NCBI GenBank assembly: GCA_030042955.1
Contig: JASHYQ010000011.1
Coordinates: forward strand, 1 to 12,178
DNA from: Thermoplasmata archaeon
GTDB lineage: Archaea > Thermoplasmatota > Thermoplasmata > Lutacidiplasmatales > UBA184
DNA length: 12,178 bases
Direction of reading: 5' to 3'
The notes below the pieces were generated by a model. The model did no database searches. It was not told the DNA's origin and saw only the letters and a list, made by a program, of their open reading frames with translations. Position 1 is the stretch's first letter. Each line of letters starts with the position of its first letter. Made by a program: the position numbers and the translations under genes. Of the stretch, positions 1 to 11,207 are shown in pieces.

Positions 1-1446
1 AAGATTCCAGCCCTCGTCCAGATGGACGAGTTCACCTACCGCATCGACCCCTCGGAGCGACCGGGGATGCGGGTCCCGGGCATCCTCTTCTCGGACGCCG
101 CGCTCCTGTCGGCGGTCGAGGGGGACCCGTCGCTCGCGCAGCTCGCGAACGTCGCGACCCTCCCCGGGGTCCAGCGCAACGCGCTCGCGATGCCGGATAT
201 CCACTTCGGCTACGGGTTCCCGGTCGGCGGGGTCGCCGCGTTCGACCTCGCGGAAGGGGTGGTCTCGCCCGGGGGGATCGGCTACGACATCAACTGCGGC
301 GTCCGCCTGGTCCGGACCTCCCTGACCGTCGAAGAGGTTCGCCCGCGCCTCTCGGAGCTCATCGAGCGGCTGTACCGGGAGGTCCCCTCCGGCGTCGGCT
401 CGCGCGGGGGTTACCCGCTGGCCCCGTCGGAGATGGACGAGGTCCTGACCGGGGGCGCGCGGTGGGCCGTGCACCGCGGGCTCGGGCGGGCCGCCGACCT
501 CGAGTTCCAGGAGGAGCAGGGATGCCTTGCGAACGCGCTCCCGGCCGAGGTCTCGGAGAACGCGCACAAGCGCGGGCTGAAGCAGCTCGGCACCCTCGGC
601 TCGGGGAACCACTTCCTCGAGGTGCAGGGCGTGGACCGGGTCCTCGACGTGCCGTTCGCGGAGGCGATGGGACTGGCGGCGAACCAGGTGGTCGTGATGC
701 TCCACACCGGCTCGCGGGGCCTCGGCCACCAGGTCGCGACCGACTTCATCGCCCGGATGGACCGGCGCCTTGCCGAGGAGGGGAAGACGCTGGTCGACCG
801 TCAGCTCTCGTGTGCCCCGATCGACTCGGACGACGGGGCCCGCTACCTCGGCGCGATGGCGGCCGGTGCGAACTTCGCGTGGGCGAACCGTCAAGCGATC
901 ACCCACGGGATCCGTCGCGCGTTCACCGCCGTCTTCGGGCGTCCCGAGGAGGAACTCGACCTCTCGGTCGTCTACGACATCGCCCACAACATGGCCAAGG
1001 TCGAGACGCACCGGGTCGACGGCGGAGCGAAGCCGTTACTGGTCCACCGTAAAGGGGCCACTCGCGCCTTCCCGGCCGGTCGGGAGGAGGTGCCGGCCGC
1101 GTACCGCCGCTTCGGCCAGCCCGTGCTGATCCCCGGCGACATGGGAACGGCCAGCTACGTGCTCGCCGGACTCCCCACCTCGATGGAGCGCTCCTTCGGC
1201 TCGTCCTGCCACGGCGCCGGCCGCCGTCTGAGCCGGCATGCCGCGGTGCGGGCGTTCCGATTCGAGGAAGTGACCCGGGACCTGCGGAACAAGGGGATCA
1301 TCGTCCGGTCGGCCTCGCGCGAGGGCGTCACCGAGGAAGCCCCGGGCGCCTACAAGGACGTGGAAGAGGTCGTCCGTGTCGCCGAGGGGGCTGGCCTCAC
1401 CCAACGGGTCGCCCGGCTTGTGCCGCTCGGCGTCGTCAAGGGGTAG
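1..1446 (+). CDS. rtcB: RtcB family RNA-splicing ligase (5' end outside window)
   Basis: RtcB joins RNA 2',3'-cyclic phosphate or 3'-phosphate ends to 5'-OH ends using GTP and Mn2+; in archaea it ligates tRNA exon halves after intron removal. Numbering from the first in-frame Met (base 22), the family motifs are all present: GGIGYDINCGVR with D89 and C92, GSGNHF with H197, HTGSRGLGHQ with H228, YDIAHN with H322, and SCHGAGR with H397, which matches the histidine guanylated in the Pyrococcus enzyme. The protein ends in GVVKG like archaeal homologues. From that Met it is 474 residues, near the usual 480. The frame stays open to base 1 (seven codons, KIPALVQ), and these residues resemble the usual RtcB N-terminus, so I infer the true start lies just left of the window. 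No intein or frameshift is seen. Its 3' end overlaps the convergent protease gene by 11 bases. Confidence 0.96.
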   Translation, partial: KIPALVQMDEFTYRIDPSERPGMRVPGILFSDAALLSAVEGDPSLAQLANVATLPGVQRNALAMPDIHFGYGFPVGGVAAFDLAEGVVSPGGIGYDINCGVRLVRTSLTVEEVRPRLSELIERLYREVPSGVGSRGGYPLAPSEMDEVLTGGARWAVHRGLGRAADLEFQEEQGCLANALPAEVSENAHKRGLKQLGTLGSGNHFLEVQGVDRVLDVPFAEAMGLAANQVVVMLHTGSRGLGHQVATDFIARMDRRLAEEGKTLVDRQLSCAPIDSDDGARYLGAMAAGANFAWANRQAITHGIRRAFTAVFGRPEEELDLSVVYDIAHNMAKVETHRVDGGAKPLLVHRKGATRAFPAGREEVPAAYRRFGQPVLIPGDMGTASYVLAGLPTSMERSFGSSCHGAGRRLSRHAAVRAFRFEEVTRDLRNKGIIVRSASREGVTEEAPGAYKDVEEVVRVAEGAGLTQRVARLVPLGVVKG

Positions 1447-4400
1447 GCGGAGGGCGGTCCCGGGCGCGCCGCGAGGAGACCGCGACCGCCAGCGCGATGC
1501 CCGCACCGACCACGGCGGCGACCCCGAGATAGAGATAGCCCGGCTCTCCCCCGGTGGCGGGAGCGGCGGTGACCACGACCGTCCAGTTCTCCTGCGCGGT
1601 CGTCCCCATCCAGTCGGTCACGGTGAGGGTGACATTGTACCGGCCGGGGGACTGATAGAAGGTCACCACGTCGGGGCCGGCCACGGCGGTACGGTTCGTC
1701 GACTCGGACCAAAGGTACCCAAAGGGGGGTCCTGCCCCGCCCGACGCCGACGCGTTGAGCGTGACCTCCAGCGGAGCCACCCCGGATTGGGGGGAAACGG
1801 TGGCCACGATGGAGATCGGCGTCGTGGAGTGGGCGACCACGCCGAAAGGCAATCGAGCGGAGTCGTTCCACGAGTTGCTGGCGGTGACGTTCACGGTATA
1901 GTCTCCCGGCAGTCCGTACACCTGGGAGACAGCCCCTCCCGTCGAGGAGTTCCCGTTCCCAAAGCTCCAGGCGAGCGAACTGGTGCCAGGACCGGACGCG
2001 CTCGCGAAGGCCGTCCACCGGAACGGCACGTTCCCGGACCCGAGGCCGCCCGGTGAGGCAGCGAGCGTCAGGGCGTCCGTGCGCGGGACGAAGCCGCCGG
2101 TCTCGACCGCCAGGAACGAGGCGTCAGCGATCGCTACGGCGATGACGTTGTGGGCCAATGGCCAGCTGACGTTCAGGGAGAAGTCTCGCGCACGGGGGGC
2201 TCCCGAGGCAGGGGCATAGACGGTCTCCGAGGTGACGCGGTCGAGAGAGCTGCTCCCCGAGCCGAGCGACCAGTTGAACAGGACCGGCGGGAGGTAGGGG
2301 CTCGAGGTGGCGGAGAAGTTGACGGTCGTGCCCGCCACGACATTGACCGCGGGTTCGATGGTCGCGGTCACGGCCGGCGTCGAGGCCCCGGCCGCCGGGA
2401 GGACGTCGATCAAGAACCCCTCGCTCGCATTCCCTTGACCCGAGTCTTCCGCATCCCCGGTGGCAAAGTAGAAGCCGGGGGCCGCATAGGTGTGCGACAC
2501 AGCGGCCCCCGTCGTCGTCGTGCCGTCCCCGAACGCCCAGAAGGTCCGGTCCGCGTCCGACTCGTATCCTCCCGTCACCACCACGGAGAAGTTCACGGTC
2601 AGCGGCGCCTCGCCGGAGGTCGCCGAGGTCGTGAAGACCCCGACCAGCGGCGGGGCGACGGTGACGTTCGTCTCGTTCGAGGCGTGAGTGCCCGAGGAGT
2701 TCGTCGCGCTCAACGAGACGGAGTAGGTGCCGGGAGCACGGAAGATCGTGCAGCCGCACGCCCCGACGTACGGGTCGCTGGACGAGAGGACCTCGGTCGG
2801 GGTGCCGGTGCCCTCGCCGCCGGAGACTCGGAAGAGGGACGGGTAGTCCGCGGGGGCGTCGCGTACCCCTGGGCTCGAGTTGGCCGTGACCCGGAAGGGA
2901 CCGGTCTGGTTGGCACAGACCGGCGCCGGAGCCCCTCCCACCGCGACCGCGACGATCGCGCTCGTGCCTCCATCCATGGGTCGGGCAGAGTCGGTGACGA
3001 TCACGTCCGCGCAGTACCCACCCGCGACGGGAAACGCGTGCGTGGTGGTGTTGGTCCCCGTGCCGTTCAGGGAGGTGCCGTCGCCAAAGCTGAACTGGTA
3101 GGAGTACGGCGCCGTACCTCCGGCGACGGTCGCGGTGAATTGGTCGGCCGCTCCTACTGCGGGGGTAAGGTCCGAGACGTTGAGGCCCACGCGGAGCGAG
3201 GACCCGCCGACCACCACCGCGGTGGGGGCCGAGGCGCTCACGTTGCCCGACGAGTCTGCGACGTACCCAACGGCGGGGAAGACCCCGTCCGCTGGGTAGA
3301 CGTGCGAGACGCTCCCGTTCGAGACCAACGCTGCGGTCCCGTCCCCGAAGTAGACCCCTTCGAGAGGGTAGGTGCCCGACCCACCCGACGGGATCAGCAC
3401 GAAGTTCACCGTCAGGGCGGCGCTCCCGTGGGTGGGCCACGCGGCGAGGCCGGCCTTCAGCGAGGAGGTCGAGCGGGGTGCTTGCGAGAGGGCGGGGACC
3501 AACTTACCGACGATCGGGGTGCCGATCCCACTCACCGGGTCCCAGCCAGGACCTGCGGTGTAAGCTCCGTTGTTCCCGGAGAGGATGTCGTGAAAGTCGG
3601 CGGAGTAGTTAGGGCCCCGCAGGATCGTGTACAGCTGGGGGTCCAGGAACCCGAGGGACCGGCCCGCGTACTGGTCCCCGATCGCGGTCACCCCGGCCCA
3701 CAGGGGAGTCGCGAGGCTGGTGCCGGCGACCCCCCCCGCCTCGCCTCCCTCAAAGATCTCGGCCGGGGTCGCGGCATCGGCGGAGACATCCGGGTCGCCT
3801 CGGAGTTCGGGGGATGCCGGAACCCCCGGCCCGGTCTGCCACCAGGGTCGCGGGAACGGCGCGAACCCACCGCCCGAGCCGCCCTGATTGTCGCAGCCTG
3901 GGCTGGTGGCCCCTGTTTCGTTGCCGGACCACGCGGACTCCCCCTTCCAGACCCCGCTCGAGTTCACTTGGAGGACCGTCCCGCCTACGCCCGTCACGAA
4001 CGGGTCGGAGGACGGATAGTTGGTCGAAACGCCGCTCGTGCCGTCCGCGGACCCGCAATCCCCCGCCGCGGAGAAGACGGTGATCCCCTCGAGCGCCGCG
4101 GCCGCGAGGACCGGCCCGAGGACCTCGTACGACCCGTCGGTCGAGGCGTTGCACGCGGAGCTGCACGGGGTCGAGAAGGCGTTGTAGACCCCGACGTCCG
4201 GCTCCCCCCAGCTCAGGGTGATGACGTCGACCCGGTCGGTAGCCACGAGCCAGTTGACCGCCTCGTACAGCCCGACGTTCGTGTCGGGTGCGAACGTCAT
4301 CGCGATCGACGCCCCCGGGGCCGCCGCATGCGACCACTCGAGGTCGAGGGCATCCTCGAGGCCCCACTCGGTCTCGGTCAGGTTGAGGTCGACCGAGGTG

Positions 4401-5335
4401 TTGACCGGATAGTCGAAGCCGACCGTGGGGGCGGGAAGGAGGAAGGTCGAGTCGAACTTCGCTAGGTCGGACGCCAGCTCGGTCTGGGGCTCGCCGCCGT
4501 CGTAGACGTCCACGATCCCGATGCTCACCCCGGTCCCGTTCGTCCCGCTGTCGATGAGGCCGGCCGCGTCGTAGGCGGTCCAGACCTGGCACGGAGAGAG
4601 CCCGGTGGAACCTCCCGAACACGAGGCGGCGGGACTGGCCACGACGGAGCCCGGCACCTGGGGGACGAACTGGGCGAGCGGGACCGGTAGGCTGACGTTC
4701 CCCAAGCCGACCGCGCCCGTCCAAGGGATGGCGCTCGGGAGCGTGGCGGGCGTCGGGTGACTGACGAAGAGGCGTCCCGTCGAGCTTCGGTACTCCTGGA
4801 ACGAGGTCCCGAAGGCGCTCCCGAGCCCCGCCACGGGGCCGGTGACCGAGAGGAGCGACCCCCCGGGCAGCACCTGCGTGGCGAGGCCGAAGCCCCCGAA
4901 ATACTGTTCCGCCCCGGTGAGCGCGGCGGGGGCCGGCCCGTAGCGGGCCGCGACTTGGGCGGGGGACAGATAGTGATGATAGAGCCCCGAGCCCACCGTG
5001 TACTCCCCGGCTGCCTCGGCCTCGAGTCCGGTGGGGTCTTGCGAAGCGAGACCGACCAGTACGCTCATCGAATTCGACGGAGGAACCGGACCAACCCAGG
5101 TGTCGCCACCGGCCTCAGGAGAGAACGCCGGTGCGACCGTGACGGGTCCCGAGCGGGACGACGGTGGCTCGACCGGGGAGGTGCGGGAGAGGGAACCCCC
5201 ACCCGCGACCCCGGGGGCCGGGAGGCCGGGAGCGACGGTCAGGGAGAGCGCAAGGACCGCGAGGAGGGCGACCACGACGGGCCCGATGGCGGCGTCGGCT
5301 CGATTCACCGAGTTAACCAGCGGGCCGCCCACCAT
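1436..5335 (-). CDS. Secreted, membrane-anchored S53 (sedolisin/kumamolisin-type) protease with PKD repeats
   Basis: This is a 1299-residue extracellular serine-carboxyl peptidase; the family typically works at acid pH and matures by autocleavage. Order of parts: N-terminal hydrophobic signal (about 16-36); activation propeptide (about 75-225) with the typical YHHYLSPAQVAARYGP stretch; S53 catalytic domain (about 245-615); about seven PKD-like domains (near 625-710, 713-800, 811-893, 896-978, 986-1077, 1084-1168, 1172-1256), the third and fifth degenerate; one C-terminal helix (about 1267-1286) followed by a basic RRARDR tail. Catalytic residues look intact: E327 and D331 in EDALDLEW, D426 in SAAGDCG, and S540 in GTSLATPLW. 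D583 and D599 (WDPVSGIGTP) fit the calcium site. Many N-x-S/T sequons suggest glycosylation. I infer it is tethered outside the membrane and degrades proteins or processes surface proteins. Start ATG chosen because it directly precedes the signal sequence and lies about 41 bases from a TATA-like box. Confidence 0.93.
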   Translation of the reverse strand: MVGGPLVNSVNRADAAIGPVVVALLAVLALSLTVAPGLPAPGVAGGGSLSRTSPVEPPSSRSGPVTVAPAFSPEAGGDTWVGPVPPSNSMSVLVGLASQDPTGLEAEAAGEYTVGSGLYHHYLSPAQVAARYGPAPAALTGAEQYFGGFGLATQVLPGGSLLSVTGPVAGLGSAFGTSFQEYRSSTGRLFVSHPTPATLPSAIPWTGAVGLGNVSLPVPLAQFVPQVPGSVVASPAASCSGGSTGLSPCQVWTAYDAAGLIDSGTNGTGVSIGIVDVYDGGEPQTELASDLAKFDSTFLLPAPTVGFDYPVNTSVDLNLTETEWGLEDALDLEWSHAAAPGASIAMTFAPDTNVGLYEAVNWLVATDRVDVITLSWGEPDVGVYNAFSTPCSSACNASTDGSYEVLGPVLAAAALEGITVFSAAGDCGSADGTSGVSTNYPSSDPFVTGVGGTVLQVNSSGVWKGESAWSGNETGATSPGCDNQGGSGGGFAPFPRPWWQTGPGVPASPELRGDPDVSADAATPAEIFEGGEAGGVAGTSLATPLWAGVTAIGDQYAGRSLGFLDPQLYTILRGPNYSADFHDILSGNNGAYTAGPGWDPVSGIGTPIVGKLVPALSQAPRSTSSLKAGLAAWPTHGSAALTVNFVLIPSGGSGTYPLEGVYFGDGTAALVSNGSVSHVYPADGVFPAVGYVADSSGNVSASAPTAVVVGGSSLRVGLNVSDLTPAVGAADQFTATVAGGTAPYSYQFSFGDGTSLNGTGTNTTTHAFPVAGGYCADVIVTDSARPMDGGTSAIVAVAVGGAPAPVCANQTGPFRVTANSSPGVRDAPADYPSLFRVSGGEGTGTPTEVLSSSDPYVGACGCTIFRAPGTYSVSLSATNSSGTHASNETNVTVAPPLVGVFTTSATSGEAPLTVNFSVVVTGGYESDADRTFWAFGDGTTTTGAAVSHTYAAPGFYFATGDAEDSGQGNASEGFLIDVLPAAGASTPAVTATIEPAVNVVAGTTVNFSATSSPYLPPVLFNWSLGSGSSSLDRVTSETVYAPASGAPRARDFSLNVSWPLAHNVIAVAIADASFLAVETGGFVPRTDALTLAASPGGLGSGNVPFRWTAFASASGPGTSSLAWSFGNGNSSTGGAVSQVYGLPGDYTVNVTASNSWNDSARLPFGVVAHSTTPISIVATVSPQSGVAPLEVTLNASASGGAGPPFGYLWSESTNRTAVAGPDVVTFYQSPGRYNVTLTVTDWMGTTAQENWTVVVTAAPATGGEPGYLYLGVAAVVGAGIALAVAVSSRRARDRPPPTP

Positions 5336-5409: not shown

Positions 5410-6750
5410 GTGAATCCGTACCTCGGCTACGAGATCGCCGCCGGGGTGGTGCTCGCCTACATCGCGGCGGTGGTCGCGCTGTACCGCGGCAACTACATCG
5501 GGCGCGACCGCGCGCTCTCCCTGCTCGGCCCCGCCCTCATGATCAAGACCCGAAGGGGGAGGGAGGCGCTCGACCGGTGGGGCCGGTTCAAGCGGTTCTG
5601 GACCGCGGTCGGCGACCTCGGGATCGTGCTCGCCGTGGTCTCGATGATCTCGATCATGGTCCTCCTCCTGTTCGACGCCTACCTGGCCCTGCATGTCGCG
5701 CCGAGCGCCGCCCCCACCGTTCAGGAGGCGATCGGGCTACCGGGGATCAACCCGTTCATCCCGATCGGCTACGGGGTGATTGCCCTCGTCATCGGGGTCG
5801 TCCTCCATGAGCTCAGCCACGGGGTCATCGCGCGGTCCCAGGGCATCGGCGTGAAAAGCCTCGGAGTCCTCTGGTGCGTCGTCCCCGTCGGCGCGTTTGT
5901 CGAGCAGGACGACGCCGACATGAACGCCGCCCCCCGCCGGAAACGCGACCGGGTCGCCGCCGCGGGCATCTTCGCCAACTTCGTGATTGCGGTCGTCTTC
6001 TTCGTCGCCCTCTCCGTCCTGGTCTCGAGCTCCGTCGCGCCGAACGCCAACGGAGTCGGAATCACCTCCGTCTCGGCCGGCTCCCCGGCCGCCAAGCTGG
6101 GCCTGGTCCCCGGCGACATCCTCCTCGAGGTCAACGGGACCGCGCTCACCTCGGTCGACCTGTTCGAGTCCACGCTCGCCAACACGACTCCCGGGGAGAA
6201 CGTCTCGCTCGCCTACTATTCCGCCGCGCTGGGCCGGACGGTCATGGTGCCCAGCGTAACGCTCGCGACGAATCCCACGGTCTCGACCCGAGGTTTCCTT
6301 GGCGTCGCCCCTGCGTTCCTCACCCCGCCCGCCCTCAAGCAGACGCTCGTCTGGCCGCTCGGCAGCTCGAACGGACCGCTGACCGGTGCGATCGACTGGC
6401 TCGTGCTTCCCCTCGCCGGTCTAGAGCCGCTCGCCGGCTCCTCGCTCCAGTTCTTCCACCTCACCGGCCCGCTGGCGGGAGTGAACCCGACCGCCTTCTG
6501 GATCACCGTGAACATCTGCTACTGGGTCGCGTGGATGAGCCTGCTGCTCGGGCTCTCCAACGCGCTCCCGCTGGTCCCGCTGGACGGTGGGCTGCTCTTC
6601 CGGGACTTCGCCGCGTCCGTGGCAGCCCGCTTCCGGAAGACGTGGTCGGAAGCCCGTCTCGAGGCGTTCGGGGGCGAGGCGGCGGTCGCCTCCTCCATTG
6701 TGGTCCTGGTGTTGCTGGTATGGCAGTTCGTCGTTCCTCGGCTCCTCTAG
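5410..6750 (+). CDS. Site-2 protease family intramembrane metalloprotease (M50) with PDZ domain
   Basis: This 446-residue membrane protein belongs to the M50 zinc proteases that cut substrate helices inside the membrane, usually as the second step of regulated intramembrane proteolysis. The zinc motif HELSH (H133, E134, H137) sits in a hydrophobic helix (about 118-140), and the second metal motif is NALPLVPLDGG with D392. A PDZ-like domain (about 213-290, GSPAAKLGLVPGDILLEVNG) lies between them, as in RseP-type and archaeal homologues. Further likely helices are near 7-25, 70-90, 184-205, 363-390 and 426-444. The start is GTG at 5410, preceded by a TATA-like box and only a short leader; no clear Shine-Dalgarno is visible. 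It is divergent from the S53 protease gene, and its last 31 bases overlap the start of priL, suggesting co-transcription. The substrate is unknown; the membrane-anchored zinc finger protein at 9240-11207 is one speculative candidate. Confidence 0.93.
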   Translation: MNPYLGYEIAAGVVLAYIAAVVALYRGNYIGRDRALSLLGPALMIKTRRGREALDRWGRFKRFWTAVGDLGIVLAVVSMISIMVLLLFDAYLALHVAPSAAPTVQEAIGLPGINPFIPIGYGVIALVIGVVLHELSHGVIARSQGIGVKSLGVLWCVVPVGAFVEQDDADMNAAPRRKRDRVAAAGIFANFVIAVVFFVALSVLVSSSVAPNANGVGITSVSAGSPAAKLGLVPGDILLEVNGTALTSVDLFESTLANTTPGENVSLAYYSAALGRTVMVPSVTLATNPTVSTRGFLGVAPAFLTPPALKQTLVWPLGSSNGPLTGAIDWLVLPLAGLEPLAGSSLQFFHLTGPLAGVNPTAFWITVNICYWVAWMSLLLGLSNALPLVPLDGGLLFRDFAASVAARFRKTWSEARLEAFGGEAAVASSIVVLVLLVWQFVVPRLL

Positions 6751-8520: not shown

Positions 8521-8527
8521 CCTCCCT
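8521..8527 (-). promoter_or_regulatory. Shine-Dalgarno-like site deciding the phosphatidyltransferase start
   Basis: On the - strand AGGGAGG ends three bases before the ATG at 8517 and overlaps the TAG stop of the kinase gene. The spacing is tighter than usual, but this is the clearest ribosome binding site in the window and supports the shorter start and coupled translation with the kinase. Confidence 0.6.
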
Positions 8528-9113
8528 ACGGCGCCGTGTCCAAAAGATAGTCGGTGACTCTCGGGTCGGTCAGCCACCGGACCCGCCCGTAGACCGAAGG
8601 ACCTCGCTTCCGAATGCGGAGTCGCACCTCCCGGGCCACCTCCTCAGGCGAGCGCCCCGTCGTATCGACTTCCCAGACGCGACGCCCCGGGCCGAGCGCT
8701 TCACGGAGCACCAGGTCGATCGCCTCCGACACTACGTTGGCGTCTCGGTCCCGGGCCGAGCCTCGCCGGAGGCGACGGAGGCGTTGTGCCAGGACGACCG
8801 GGTTGCAGCGCAGGACCACGATGTCCCGAATGGGGAGGAGATGGGCTAGGTGCCCAACGTAGACCTGGTGCGGGTGCACGCGGTGGAGCCCGGGGAACCG
8901 GTGCTGAAGCTGGGGCAGGTCGACAATAATGCTCCCGCCCTGTCGACGCCCAAGTCCGGCCCTCACCGCAAGCTCAGCTACCTCCACCACCGAGAACCTC
9001 GGCCTCAGAAGGGCCGCAACGGACGACTTTCCAGAGCCGGGCGTGCCCGTCAACGCCACGGGCGCGACTCGGGAGTGACCGATACCCTCTCCCTCTCGAG
9101 ACCGAACGCTCAC
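8526..9113 (-). CDS. Fap7/hCINAP-like adenylate kinase family protein
   Basis: This P-loop nucleotide kinase belongs to the archaeal adenylate kinase group related to eukaryotic Fap7 (hCINAP), an enzyme that also binds ribosomal protein uS11 in small-subunit maturation. Numbered from GTG 9113 (195 residues), the Walker A is GTPGSGKS at 23-30. Typical family segments follow: IIVDLP (62-67), HQVYVGHLAHLLP (82-94), VVLRCNP (99-105), and VWEVDTTGRSPEEVA (146-160). The Arg-rich stretch near 108-123 fits a lid-like loop. The start is uncertain: GTG 9113 has a GAGGGAG about 8 bases upstream and a TATA-like box further up; ATG 9158 would add 15 residues (210 in all) and GTG 9059 would give a shorter 177-residue protein starting right at the P-loop, as in many homologues. 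It lies 8 bases upstream of the phosphatidyltransferase gene in an apparent operon. Whether it acts mainly in nucleotide balance or ribosome assembly is not visible. Confidence 0.88.
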   Translation of the reverse strand: MSVRSREGEGIGHSRVAPVALTGTPGSGKSSVAALLRPRFSVVEVAELAVRAGLGRRQGGSIIVDLPQLQHRFPGLHRVHPHQVYVGHLAHLLPIRDIVVLRCNPVVLAQRLRRLRRGSARDRDANVVSEAIDLVLREALGPGRRVWEVDTTGRSPEEVAREVRLRIRKRGPSVYGRVRWLTDPRVTDYLLDTAP

Positions 9114-9143
9114 GCCCAATGCTCCCTCGCTGCTGCGATAGGC

Positions 9144-9153
9144 GTAAAAAACG
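9144..9153 (-). promoter_or_regulatory. Candidate TATA box for the kinase/phosphatidyltransferase operon
   Basis: On the - strand CGTTTTTTAC is centred about 35 bases before GTG 9113, predicting transcription start near 9123 and a leader of about 10 bases. If true, the ATG at 9158 would lie upstream of the transcript and could not be used. A second weak A/T block at 9187-9198 could instead serve the 9158 start. Based on motif and spacing only. Confidence 0.4.
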
Positions 9154-9210
9154 TACACTCAGTCGAGACTTTGTCGGACCGCACTTGAGAAATAACTCAC
9201 CCCGGAGAAG

Positions 9211-9219
9211 CTTAAGTAG
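9211..9219 (+). promoter_or_regulatory. Candidate TATA box for the zinc finger surface protein gene (leaderless)
   Basis: CTTAAGTAG, preceded by purine-rich GGAGAAG that could act as a BRE, is centred 25 bases before the ATG at 9240. That spacing predicts a transcript starting at or next to the start codon, which fits the lack of a ribosome binding site. A TAAGT word recurs 9 bases downstream; its meaning is unclear. Confidence 0.5.
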
Positions 9220-9239
9220 CCTAAGTCATCCGGGCAGGC

Positions 9240-11207
9240 ATGCGAAAGGCCGCGTGGCGAACTTTGGGATCTCTTGGGTTGGGGCTCGTCGCAGTCTTCT
9301 TGGTGCTGGGTATGTCCGGGACCACCGTACTTCTGGGTCCGGCATCCTCCGCTCGCGACGGTGGCACGACCCTGATGGCGGATCATACCGCGGCAGCTGT
9401 CAAGCCGGACGCCGCGTTGACCAGCTGGATCAACACATCGGACGCGACGGGTCCCGCAGCCTTCCAGCCGGTCCCCGCGTGGATCAACTTTACCATCATG
9501 TACGGGAACGTGACGCCGGGCTTCGAGCTCGCGTCCAACAACACGTACGTGAACCTGACGATCTATGATGACGTTTCCCTGTCGTACTACCTGAACTACT
9601 CCTTCCCCATTGTTACGGGAGTAGCGACGTACTCGCTCGAGTTGGACCAGACGTTCCTCGGATGCTCGGCCGCGGACTGCACGGCGAGCATGCCCGACAC
9701 CTACACCTACACGCTGTTGTCGACGATCAACGACACTGCGAATGGAGGGAGCCTGGGAACCAACACTACGGTAGTGTCGACCACGCACTGGGTGACCTAT
9801 CTCCCGACCTACGTCTATTTCAAGGGCGTGTCGGGACCCACCGTCAACTCCGTCCTGCCGGCCTGGGTCAACTTCACGATTGCCTACGGCAACGTCGAGC
9901 CGTCCTTCGTGATCTCCTCGACCTATGTCACCGCCACGCTCGAGATTTACGACACGGTGACCCACTCCGATTACATGGTCTACTCGGTCCCGATCGTCAG
10001 CGGGCAGGCGACCTACTCGATTGAGCTGGACCAAACGTTCCTCGGGTGCTCGGCCGCCAATTGCACCGCGACCATGCCCGACACGTACGGCTTCAGCCTG
10101 TATGCGACCCTGACCGGGGTGGGCAACGGAGGGGTCCCGGCGTCCACCTCGGACCTCCTCTTCGCGACCACGACCTGGGTGAACGCCCTCTCGACCTGGG
10201 TCAACGCGCTGACCGCGACGGGCCCGTCCCCCTACTCGACCTTGCCCGGGTGGATCAACTTCACCCTCGTCTACGGCGGCGTCGGGCCCTCGTACGAGGT
10301 CGGGCCGGCCAACACTACGGTGTATCTCTACACCCTCAACGAGGTCACCCATGCGTCGGCGAACTACTCGGTCCCGCTCAAGCTCGGGCAGACGAGCTAC
10401 TCGCTCGAGCTGACGAGCTCGGGCCTTGCGGGATGCACGCAGGCCAACTGCACGACCACCTTCGGGTCGATGAACGACACCTACGCGTTCACCCTGTGGC
10501 CAAGCATCAACGGGACGGCACACCGGGGAATCTATACGGTGAACGGGACGCTGTTCGCCCCGCTCGCCGTGTCGGCGTTCATCCTGTATGCGCCGACCTT
10601 CTCGGTGAGCGCTCCAGCCGCGACCGCGATCGTTGGGAACGTCAACATCACGACGAACTACACGGCCCAGTTCTTGGTCACCGCGGAGGTCTACGTCTAC
10701 ACCGTGCCCACCCTCCAGGGCGTCGCCCCCGTCCTCCTCTACTCGGCGAGCGCGCTCAAGCCCACCGGCACTACGGGGGCGGTCACGAACGTCTGGTACG
10801 AAGGGACTCCGGGTAGCTACGAAGTTTCGTTCGTCGCGTACCTCACCTACGAGACGGTGTACATCAACGGCACGGTCACCGTGGAAACCACTCCGTCCGG
10901 CGGGGTCGTCTACCAGAATACCACGATCTACAACAACGTCACCGGCGGCTCGACCCCGGCGGGCTTCTTCGGATTGGGCCCGGCGGTCAGCGGAACGTTG
11001 TTCCTGCTCATCGGTCTGATCGTCGGTATCCTGGCCGGCCTGGTCGCAGCGAGGATGGTCATGTCCTCGGCCCAGGCGAAGCCCCCGCAGCAGTGGTCGG
11101 AAAAGAAGGAGGAGGAGACCTCCAACACCTGCAGCGTCTGCGGTAAGTCGTTCGGCTCCGCGGACGAGCTCGCAGCCCACTCCAAGAGCGAGCACGGGAT
11201 GCAGTAG
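9240..11207 (+). CDS. Repeat-containing surface protein with one membrane helix and a C-terminal C2H2 zinc finger
   Basis: I do not recognise a named family. The 655-residue protein starts with a signal sequence (basic RKAAWR, hydrophobic about 10-33). A large ectodomain follows with three related repeats (about 59-185, 186-315, 316-445), each with a P-(A/G)-W-(I/V)-N-F-T core (79, 207, 336) and a C-x4-C pair (C142/C147, C270/C275, C399/C404) that could be a small disulfide loop. A further Ig-like beta-rich region runs to about 550. Roughly 22 N-x-S/T sequons suggest dense glycosylation. One helix (about 586-605) is followed by a charged linker (WSEKKEEE) and a textbook zinc finger at 631-652: C-x2-C-x3-F-x5-L-x2-H-x4-H. 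Basic residues flanking the helix and the signal predict repeats outside and finger inside the cell. I infer a receptor-like, adhesive or membrane-tethered regulatory role; the finger could bind nucleic acid or protein. No neighbour proves its function. Confidence 0.9.
   Translation: MRKAAWRTLGSLGLGLVAVFLVLGMSGTTVLLGPASSARDGGTTLMADHTAAAVKPDAALTSWINTSDATGPAAFQPVPAWINFTIMYGNVTPGFELASNNTYVNLTIYDDVSLSYYLNYSFPIVTGVATYSLELDQTFLGCSAADCTASMPDTYTYTLLSTINDTANGGSLGTNTTVVSTTHWVTYLPTYVYFKGVSGPTVNSVLPAWVNFTIAYGNVEPSFVISSTYVTATLEIYDTVTHSDYMVYSVPIVSGQATYSIELDQTFLGCSAANCTATMPDTYGFSLYATLTGVGNGGVPASTSDLLFATTTWVNALSTWVNALTATGPSPYSTLPGWINFTLVYGGVGPSYEVGPANTTVYLYTLNEVTHASANYSVPLKLGQTSYSLELTSSGLAGCTQANCTTTFGSMNDTYAFTLWPSINGTAHRGIYTVNGTLFAPLAVSAFILYAPTFSVSAPAATAIVGNVNITTNYTAQFLVTAEVYVYTVPTLQGVAPVLLYSASALKPTGTTGAVTNVWYEGTPGSYEVSFVAYLTYETVYINGTVTVETTPSGGVVYQNTTIYNNVTGGSTPAGFFGLGPAVSGTLFLLIGLIVGILAGLVAARMVMSSAQAKPPQQWSEKKEEETSNTCSVCGKSFGSADELAAHSKSEHGMQ
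9414..10574 (+). repeat. Three tandem protein-coding repeats of about 384 bases in the surface protein gene
   Basis: The gene contains three consecutive units of about 127-130 codons, near 9414-9794, 9795-10184 and 10185-10574. Units 1 and 2 are close even in DNA: 9641-9702 and 10025-10086, offset by exactly 384 bases, match at about 50 of 62 positions by eye, including LDQTFLGCSAA. Unit 3 is more diverged but keeps the NFT core, the C-x4-C pair and the NDTY/PDTY segment after it. This points to internal duplication, with units 1 and 2 separated most recently or kept alike by conversion. Confidence 0.8.
10173..10214 (+). repeat. 21-base tandem duplication encoding TWVNALS/TWVNALT
   Basis: Two adjacent 21-base copies at 10173-10193 and 10194-10214 encode the heptads TWVNALS and TWVNALT at the join between ectodomain repeats 2 and 3. 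They differ at a few mostly silent positions, so the duplication is not brand new. It lengthens the linker by seven residues, which explains why repeat 2 is slightly longer than repeat 1. Confidence 0.7.

Follow-up and report, generated by a model that had tools for sequence, protein, structure and literature searches.

Several archaeal surface proteins end in a predicted C2H2 zinc finger. Fingers of this type are usually discussed as readers of nucleic acids, yet here one forms the conserved, probably cytoplasmic, end of proteins that include extracellular acid proteases. Together with a membrane helix and a tryptophan motif, the finger makes up one conserved tail module. This helix-W-finger tail is real, under selection and common to surface proteins and acid proteases, and as far as we searched it is confined to a single archaeal family, known mainly from metagenomes. 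The best-supported reading of the sequence data, to which we give an even chance, is that the tail would act as a cytoplasmic docking device for surface acid proteases and partner proteins. If the finger does dock a partner, the tail would show how digestion at the surface of such cells is organised. In addition, natural losses of the finger and a conserved promoter element make its role testable by comparison.

The gene from which the analysis started lies in the window, that is, the whole stretch of DNA analysed (12,178 nucleotides; contig C28 of a Thermoplasmata genome of 1.59 Mb, listed as 59.4% complete). We call this gene and its relatives class A, and a paralogue often found upstream class B. 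The class A gene is single copy in the window's genome.

The window gene and its product

The anatomy of the gene and its surroundings is collected in Table 1. The first-pass annotation had placed the gene, its strand, three repeats and 22 sequons correctly, and its terminal finger pattern, C631-x2-C-x3-F-x5-L-x2-H647-x4-H652, can be read directly in the protein. The signal-like N terminus and single membrane helix that it described agree with the hydropathy windows above 1.6, which fall at the N terminus and at about residues 574-611, apart from two weak ones within the ectodomain (431 and 438).

Table 1. Features of the window gene and its neighbourhood (positions in the window; residues refer to the class A protein)
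Feature	Position	Strand	Basis or remark
Large S53-like protein	1436-5335	-	Pro-kuma_activ and six PKD stretches
M50 site-2-protease-like protein with PDZ domain	5410-6750	+	Pfam
AAA_18 kinase-like ORF	8526-9158	-	neighbour of class A gene
Promoter element TTAAGTA-N4-AAGTCATC (TATA-like part plus AAGTC(A/G)TC)	9212..9230	+	9 nt before ATG
Class A surface protein gene	9240..11207	+	ATG start; 655 aa plus stop; homologues found
Candidate N-terminal signal sequence, residues 1 to about 37	9240..9350	+	predicted; hydrophobic from residue 4 on
Extracellular repeat 1, residues 57-185, C142-x4-C147	9408..9794	+	repeat alignment, BLASTP
Extracellular repeat 2, residues 186-313, C270-x4-C275	9795..10178	+	repeat alignment, BLASTP
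Extracellular repeat 3, residues 314-443, C399-x4-C404	10179..10568	+	repeat alignment, BLASTP
Membrane-proximal domain, residues 444-572	10569..10955	+	common to class A relatives in alignment A3, more weakly in alignment A5
Transmembrane helix core, residues 586-604	10995..11051	+	hydropathy; A1 consensus
Juxtamembrane P-x-Q-x-W motif, residues 615-619	11082..11096	+	W invariant in A1
C2H2 finger, C631..H652	11130..11195	+	pattern, Pfam profiles, A1
SHMT-like gene	from 11318	-	neighbour of class A gene

The repeats are 128-130 residues long and share 50%, 44% and 41% identity in pairwise comparison (BLASTP, E 3e-45 to 6e-29), with 34 columns invariant across all three. The only cysteines of the protein are the three C-x4-C pairs of the repeats and the finger pair (631/634). 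All 22 sequons lie in the ectodomain and the last 55 residues hold none; 5000 shuffles of the ectodomain gave 7.7 sequons on average, and not one reached 22. Signal sequence and topology are predictions, and the protein is probably secreted, N-glycosylated and held at the surface by a single helix. The Pfam scan found no thermopsin domain (PF05317) in it; the pro-domain and catalytic motif of S53 kumamolisins are likewise absent from the protein, and direct reading of residues 569-604 revealed no PGF motif.

Read in six frames, the window contains a single match to C-x2-C-x3-F-x5-L-x2-H-x3-5-H, namely the finger. Across its own genome, PF13912 matches at this place only (27.1 bits, cut-off 25) and PF00096 has its best match there (24.1 bits, cut-off 25.2), followed by two weak ones (E 0.9 and 2.6). 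When the whole protein is scored, both profiles fall below their curated cut-offs (22.3 of 25 bits for PF13912, 18 of 25.2 bits for PF00096). The protein holds one finger, not the two or more in series that are a trait of DNA-binding C2H2 proteins.

One tail module in one archaeal family

The tails of 30 loci have the helix, the W motif and the C2H2 finger in common. In the 24 rows of the tail alignment (A1), three glycines, the tryptophan, both finger cysteines, the phenylalanine, both histidines and one lysine are invariant.

How far the tail is found depends on the query. With the whole protein, 44 of the 103 genomes of the family matched, mostly through the C-terminal part, and a large protein set gave 8 matches among the best 8000 candidates, including one almost the same as the query. 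The A1 profile matched 82/103 family genomes at 1e-3, many of them by finger or helix only; at 1e-5 it matched 60 of the 106 genomes of the order, all belonging to the window's family (f1), with G042 and G051 as finger-only cases. When the search was widened to 400 genomes of the class (best 12 candidates each), the sole matches outside f1 were G113 and G124 (finger-only) and G248 (helix-only). A profile search of contigs found 27 loci, whose record titles name Thermoplasmata in 26 cases (one of the loci is UBA184) and Euryarchaeota in one, and a single-sequence scan of the same contig set found nothing. Searching the protein set with the tail returned 39 proteins. One genome listed as 100% complete (G039) has no match, either to the whole protein or to the A1 profile.

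Two observations concern finger-like sequences elsewhere. Three viral contigs (L072, L073 and L074) carry a 22-residue finger-like match with 74% identity to the tail finger, but a full finger was not recovered from them by regular expression. A putative open frame in a different family of the class (L188, G113:C33:12400-14700) has a hydrophobic stretch followed by three C-terminal C2H2 fingers; this frame extends beyond the stretch examined.

Different ectodomains and a tandem protease paralogue

Ahead of the tail stand quite different ectodomains: repeats, thermopsin, DUF4397 and, in the tandem paralogue that lies upstream, an S53 protease of kumamolisin type. The Pfam scans, which covered 43 of 53 class A proteins and 14 class B-type proteins, placed thermopsin in 6/43 class A proteins, and DUF4397 occurs in 4 of the 39 proteins of the tail search (known from the protein set only, with the host genome unseen). 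Three repeats, as in the window protein, recur in P0003, and the other eight rows of alignment A3 have fewer.

The second tail (class B, alignment A2) ends the gene upstream of class A in 11/30 loci, where the two genes stand in tandem and their fingers present different faces. Among the 14 class B-type proteins scanned, some of which are incomplete and one of which (L131) has no finger, Pro-kuma_activ was found in 9 and Peptidase_S8 in 5. By our own patterns, the GGTS serine motif is present in 14/14, E-x3-D in 10/14 and the D motif in 7/14. The class B profile matches kumamolisin structures at 4.5e-19, and all four proteins returned by the class B tail search of the protein set contain Pro-kuma_activ.

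Two S53 proteins end differently. The class B-like protein of L131 (3-4574, + strand) ends in a Pro/Ser/Thr-rich tail. The large S53-like protein of the window (Table 1) has E-x-x-L-D and SAAGD motifs, gave no match to our serine-motif pattern, and ends with one C-terminal helix and a short basic end, without a finger. The passages of PMC9287336 consulted place UBA184 in Lutacidiplasmatales, to which the window's genome probably belongs, and report extracellular S53, thermopsin and A4 peptidases in that order; the terms 'zinc finger' and 'S-layer' are absent from the paper's text.

The finger is constrained but dispensable

The first-pass annotation had proposed that an outside-sensing or adhesive domain is coupled to an intracellular finger. 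Helix and finger do stand together in most relatives: the finger is present in 60 of 74 tabulated proteins (40/54 in class A, 20/20 in class B) and is as constrained as the helix, but the coupling is not obligatory. The 74 proteins come from 59 chosen loci in 56 genomes, with L131 and G014 standing outside the table. All 14 fingerless proteins keep the helix and 13 of them the W motif; their tails are 24-70 residues long and consist of Ser, Thr and Gly to 34-65%. Sequons do occur in some tails, with one in 5/40 class A finger tails and in 1/14 fingerless tails.

Homologues without the finger, the case that the annotation had set against its own proposal, thus exist, and they sit on several branches. 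The membrane-proximal segments of 64 class A proteins (50 with the finger, 14 without) were used for a tree built without the finger itself; L158 and L159, which are truncated where their loci end, and G009 are absent from it, and its filter would remove segments of 110 residues or fewer. On this tree the finger changes six times, five of the changes being forced by well-supported branches, and we read all six as losses. With so many changes the finger cannot be essential to surface function; it is dispensable, and anchoring does not need it.

A frameshift was considered as the origin of fingerless tails and rejected, as no finger-like stretch could be read in any of the three forward frames, either of the tail DNA or of up to 600 nt downstream, in 13 of the 14 cases. 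In the fourteenth (G009; L144, G009:C44) an in-frame TGA follows a Ser/Gly/Asp-rich linker and immediately precedes an intact finger; this may be a loss caught midway, readthrough or an artefact of the assembly.

Where it is present, the finger is under strong purifying selection. In 14 hand-chosen gene pairs (nine with the finger, five without), pooled pN/pS in the finger pairs is 0.13 for both finger and helix, 0.28 for the linker and 0.39 for the ectodomain; the fingerless pairs give 0.07 (helix), 0.35 (tail) and 0.40 (ectodomain). Values vary from pair to pair. One of the finger pairs, L048/L061, reaches no more than 73% identity, and of the five fingerless tails three are at least as constrained as many linkers.

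Each class retains its own finger helix face. Position +3 is E in 31/40 class A fingers; in class B, +2 is F or Y in 15/20 and +6 is Q in 18/20. Moreover, the fingers of the two classes may change together: in the clade whose class A genes are fingerless, the core F of the class B finger is lost in 4/4 genomes (L075, L077, L079 and L080), versus 0/16 other class B fingers, a co-variation that amounts to one event in one clade, the sole fingerless-A clade whose class B was read.

These patterns bear on a structural explanation, in which the finger would be a folded plug that keeps the helix from slipping, or a knob through which A and B tails dimerise, with no further partner. The equal conservation of helix and finger, the tandem arrangement with class-specific faces and the co-variation in one clade speak for such a cap or dimer. 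Against this, the helix stays conserved where the finger is missing, and several genomes have class A and no detected class B, though most of these are incomplete. We find the structural explanation doubtful. A zinc or redox sensor that alters the activity or turnover of the surface protein is very improbable: a Cys2His2 site near the membrane would suit it, as would the dispensability expected of a regulatory part, whereas the conserved residues go beyond the metal ligands and no neighbouring gene examined points to such a role. A docking tail, our preferred reading, is discussed below.

A promoter element and a conserved genomic place

The promoter element in front of the window gene has no other exact match in its own genome. 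In the form TTAAGTA-N3-6-AAGTC(A/G)TC it occurs once in each of eight genomes picked for showing it, and in the whole family in 19/103 genomes, again with one match each; the reversed control pattern matches in none of the 103. Eighteen of the 19 matches stand at a class A gene start. We also scored 45 class A starts, leaving out loci whose gene start is off the stretch: 26 agree with the element at 13 or more of its 15 positions, and in 25 of them the ATG follows at the same distance of 9 nt. In a control with random stretches, 1/1970 scored at least 13 (the control admitted stretches with starts up to 9100, which can include the site itself). Scores of 7-9 were obtained for the six thermopsin-type class A genes, some of whose starts may have been wrongly placed.

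The nineteenth match, in G084 (L169 1515-1547, G084:C44), lies 12 nt before the gene of a small polytopic membrane protein, which we take to be SatP-like and which is possibly a second member of the regulon. The class A gene of that genome has a diverged element.

The place of the gene is itself conserved. Searches with the window proteins (tblastn) of 31 class A loci found SHMT in 28, the kinase in 16, a CDP-alcohol transferase in 16 and the M50 protease in 13, many of the loci being incomplete stretches. In genomes chosen for an absent or weak class A match, SHMT was found in 27/27. Twenty loci taken from genomes that lack the class A gene gave no match to the class A tail profile (20/20), and one of them (L131) holds the class B-like gene described above. 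As the kinase lies directly beside SHMT in 18 of these 20 loci, we regard the class A gene as accessory, in a genomic setting that is itself conserved. The M50 protease was considered as a partner and rejected, since it lies near SHMT in 17/20 loci without the class A gene and is not tied to it.

The first-pass annotation had likened the protein to membrane-tethered regulators. In such a scheme the ectodomain would sense a signal, an intramembrane protease would free the finger, and the finger would bind DNA. The C2H2 pattern, the site-2 protease with a PDZ domain in the window (with homologues in the class A loci counted above, several of them incomplete) and the D and E at helix positions +2 and +3, which resemble a Zif268-type DNA-binding finger, are consistent with it. 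Zif268-type DNA-binding C2H2 proteins are defined by fingers in series and by basic contact residues at helix positions -1 and +6. The window protein has a single finger, and R or K at -1 or +6 is found in 0/60 tail fingers. This trait is weakly informative and does not separate docking from other roles, because 32/38 soluble fingers of related genomes used as a control also lack it (6/38 have it). Further points stand against a tethered factor. Six fingerless genes (G024, G025, G026, G053, G060 and G061) carry an exact copy of the element, and this argues against a finger that reads its own promoter; the tails are near-neutral in the 74-protein table; the same tail also ends proteases; and the M50 gene persists near SHMT where class A is absent. 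In addition, the predicted type I orientation is atypical for a substrate of a site-2 protease, as the usual substrates do not have it. The analogy finds no support here, and a tethered regulator is unlikely.

A docking tail as the preferred reading

Returning to the docking reading, the outside of the cell would carry a beta-rich repeat ectodomain, adhesive or substrate-holding, and the inside the 51-residue tail. The finger would face the cytoplasm and probably binds zinc. It may bind proteins as a handle would, holding or clustering acid proteases and partner surface proteins by way of a putative cytoplasmic partner. In favour of this are the spread of the module, the different ectodomains that share it, the class B tails upstream, the constraint on the finger, the class-specific finger faces, the co-variation in one clade and a window tail free of sequons. 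Against it weigh the six changes on the tree, the sequons in some tails of relatives and the accessory nature of the gene. We propose more tentatively, as a possibility that we would not rate as probable, that this is an undescribed archaeal module, in which a C2H2 handle would bring acid proteases and surface proteins to a common intracellular partner and so organise extracellular digestion from inside, the fingerless proteins representing a free-running state.

Comparison with known systems

In the titles, abstract openings and passages of the literature searched, no description of such a tail was found. The tail finger shares with known C2H2 zinc fingers (PF00096, PF13912) the pattern C-x2-C-x3-F-x5-L-x2-H-x4-H and the profile match at its place. 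It differs in being single and C-terminal, in standing behind a membrane helix, in lacking Arg or Lys at -1/+6, and in the sub-cut-off scores of the whole protein.

Two comparisons concern the parts to which the tail is attached. Kumamolisin-type S53 peptidases share with class B the Pro-kuma_activ domain (9/14), the GGTS motif (14/14) and the structure match by profile; class B, however, runs on for roughly 1000 residues and adds the helix and C2H2 tail, and the window protein is not an S53 peptidase. PGF-CTERM/archaeosortase anchors are likewise a C-terminal helix module on unrelated surface proteins. Unlike them, the window helix has no PGF motif and is followed by a 51-residue candidate folded domain instead of a short basic end.

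Two published membrane proteins resemble separate parts of the system, as far as the passages of PMC4343526 consulted describe them. The rhomboid RhoII of Haloferax volcanii has an N-terminal AN1 zinc finger and is, like the window protein, an archaeal membrane protein whose zinc finger adjoins the membrane part. RhoII is a protease, a six-helix enzyme with its AN1 finger at the N terminus, whereas the tail described here puts a C2H2 finger at the C terminus of single-pass surface proteins. SSO2194 of Sulfolobus solfataricus is a membrane thermopsin, an extracellular acid protease with one helix, and in this it resembles the class A relatives that carry a thermopsin domain; PKD and Y_Y_Y domains and no finger are named for it in those passages, and the window protein has no protease domain. 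Among the papers compared, and to the extent that those passages describe them, RhoII with its AN1 finger and SSO2194 with its one-helix thermopsin are the closest systems in print.
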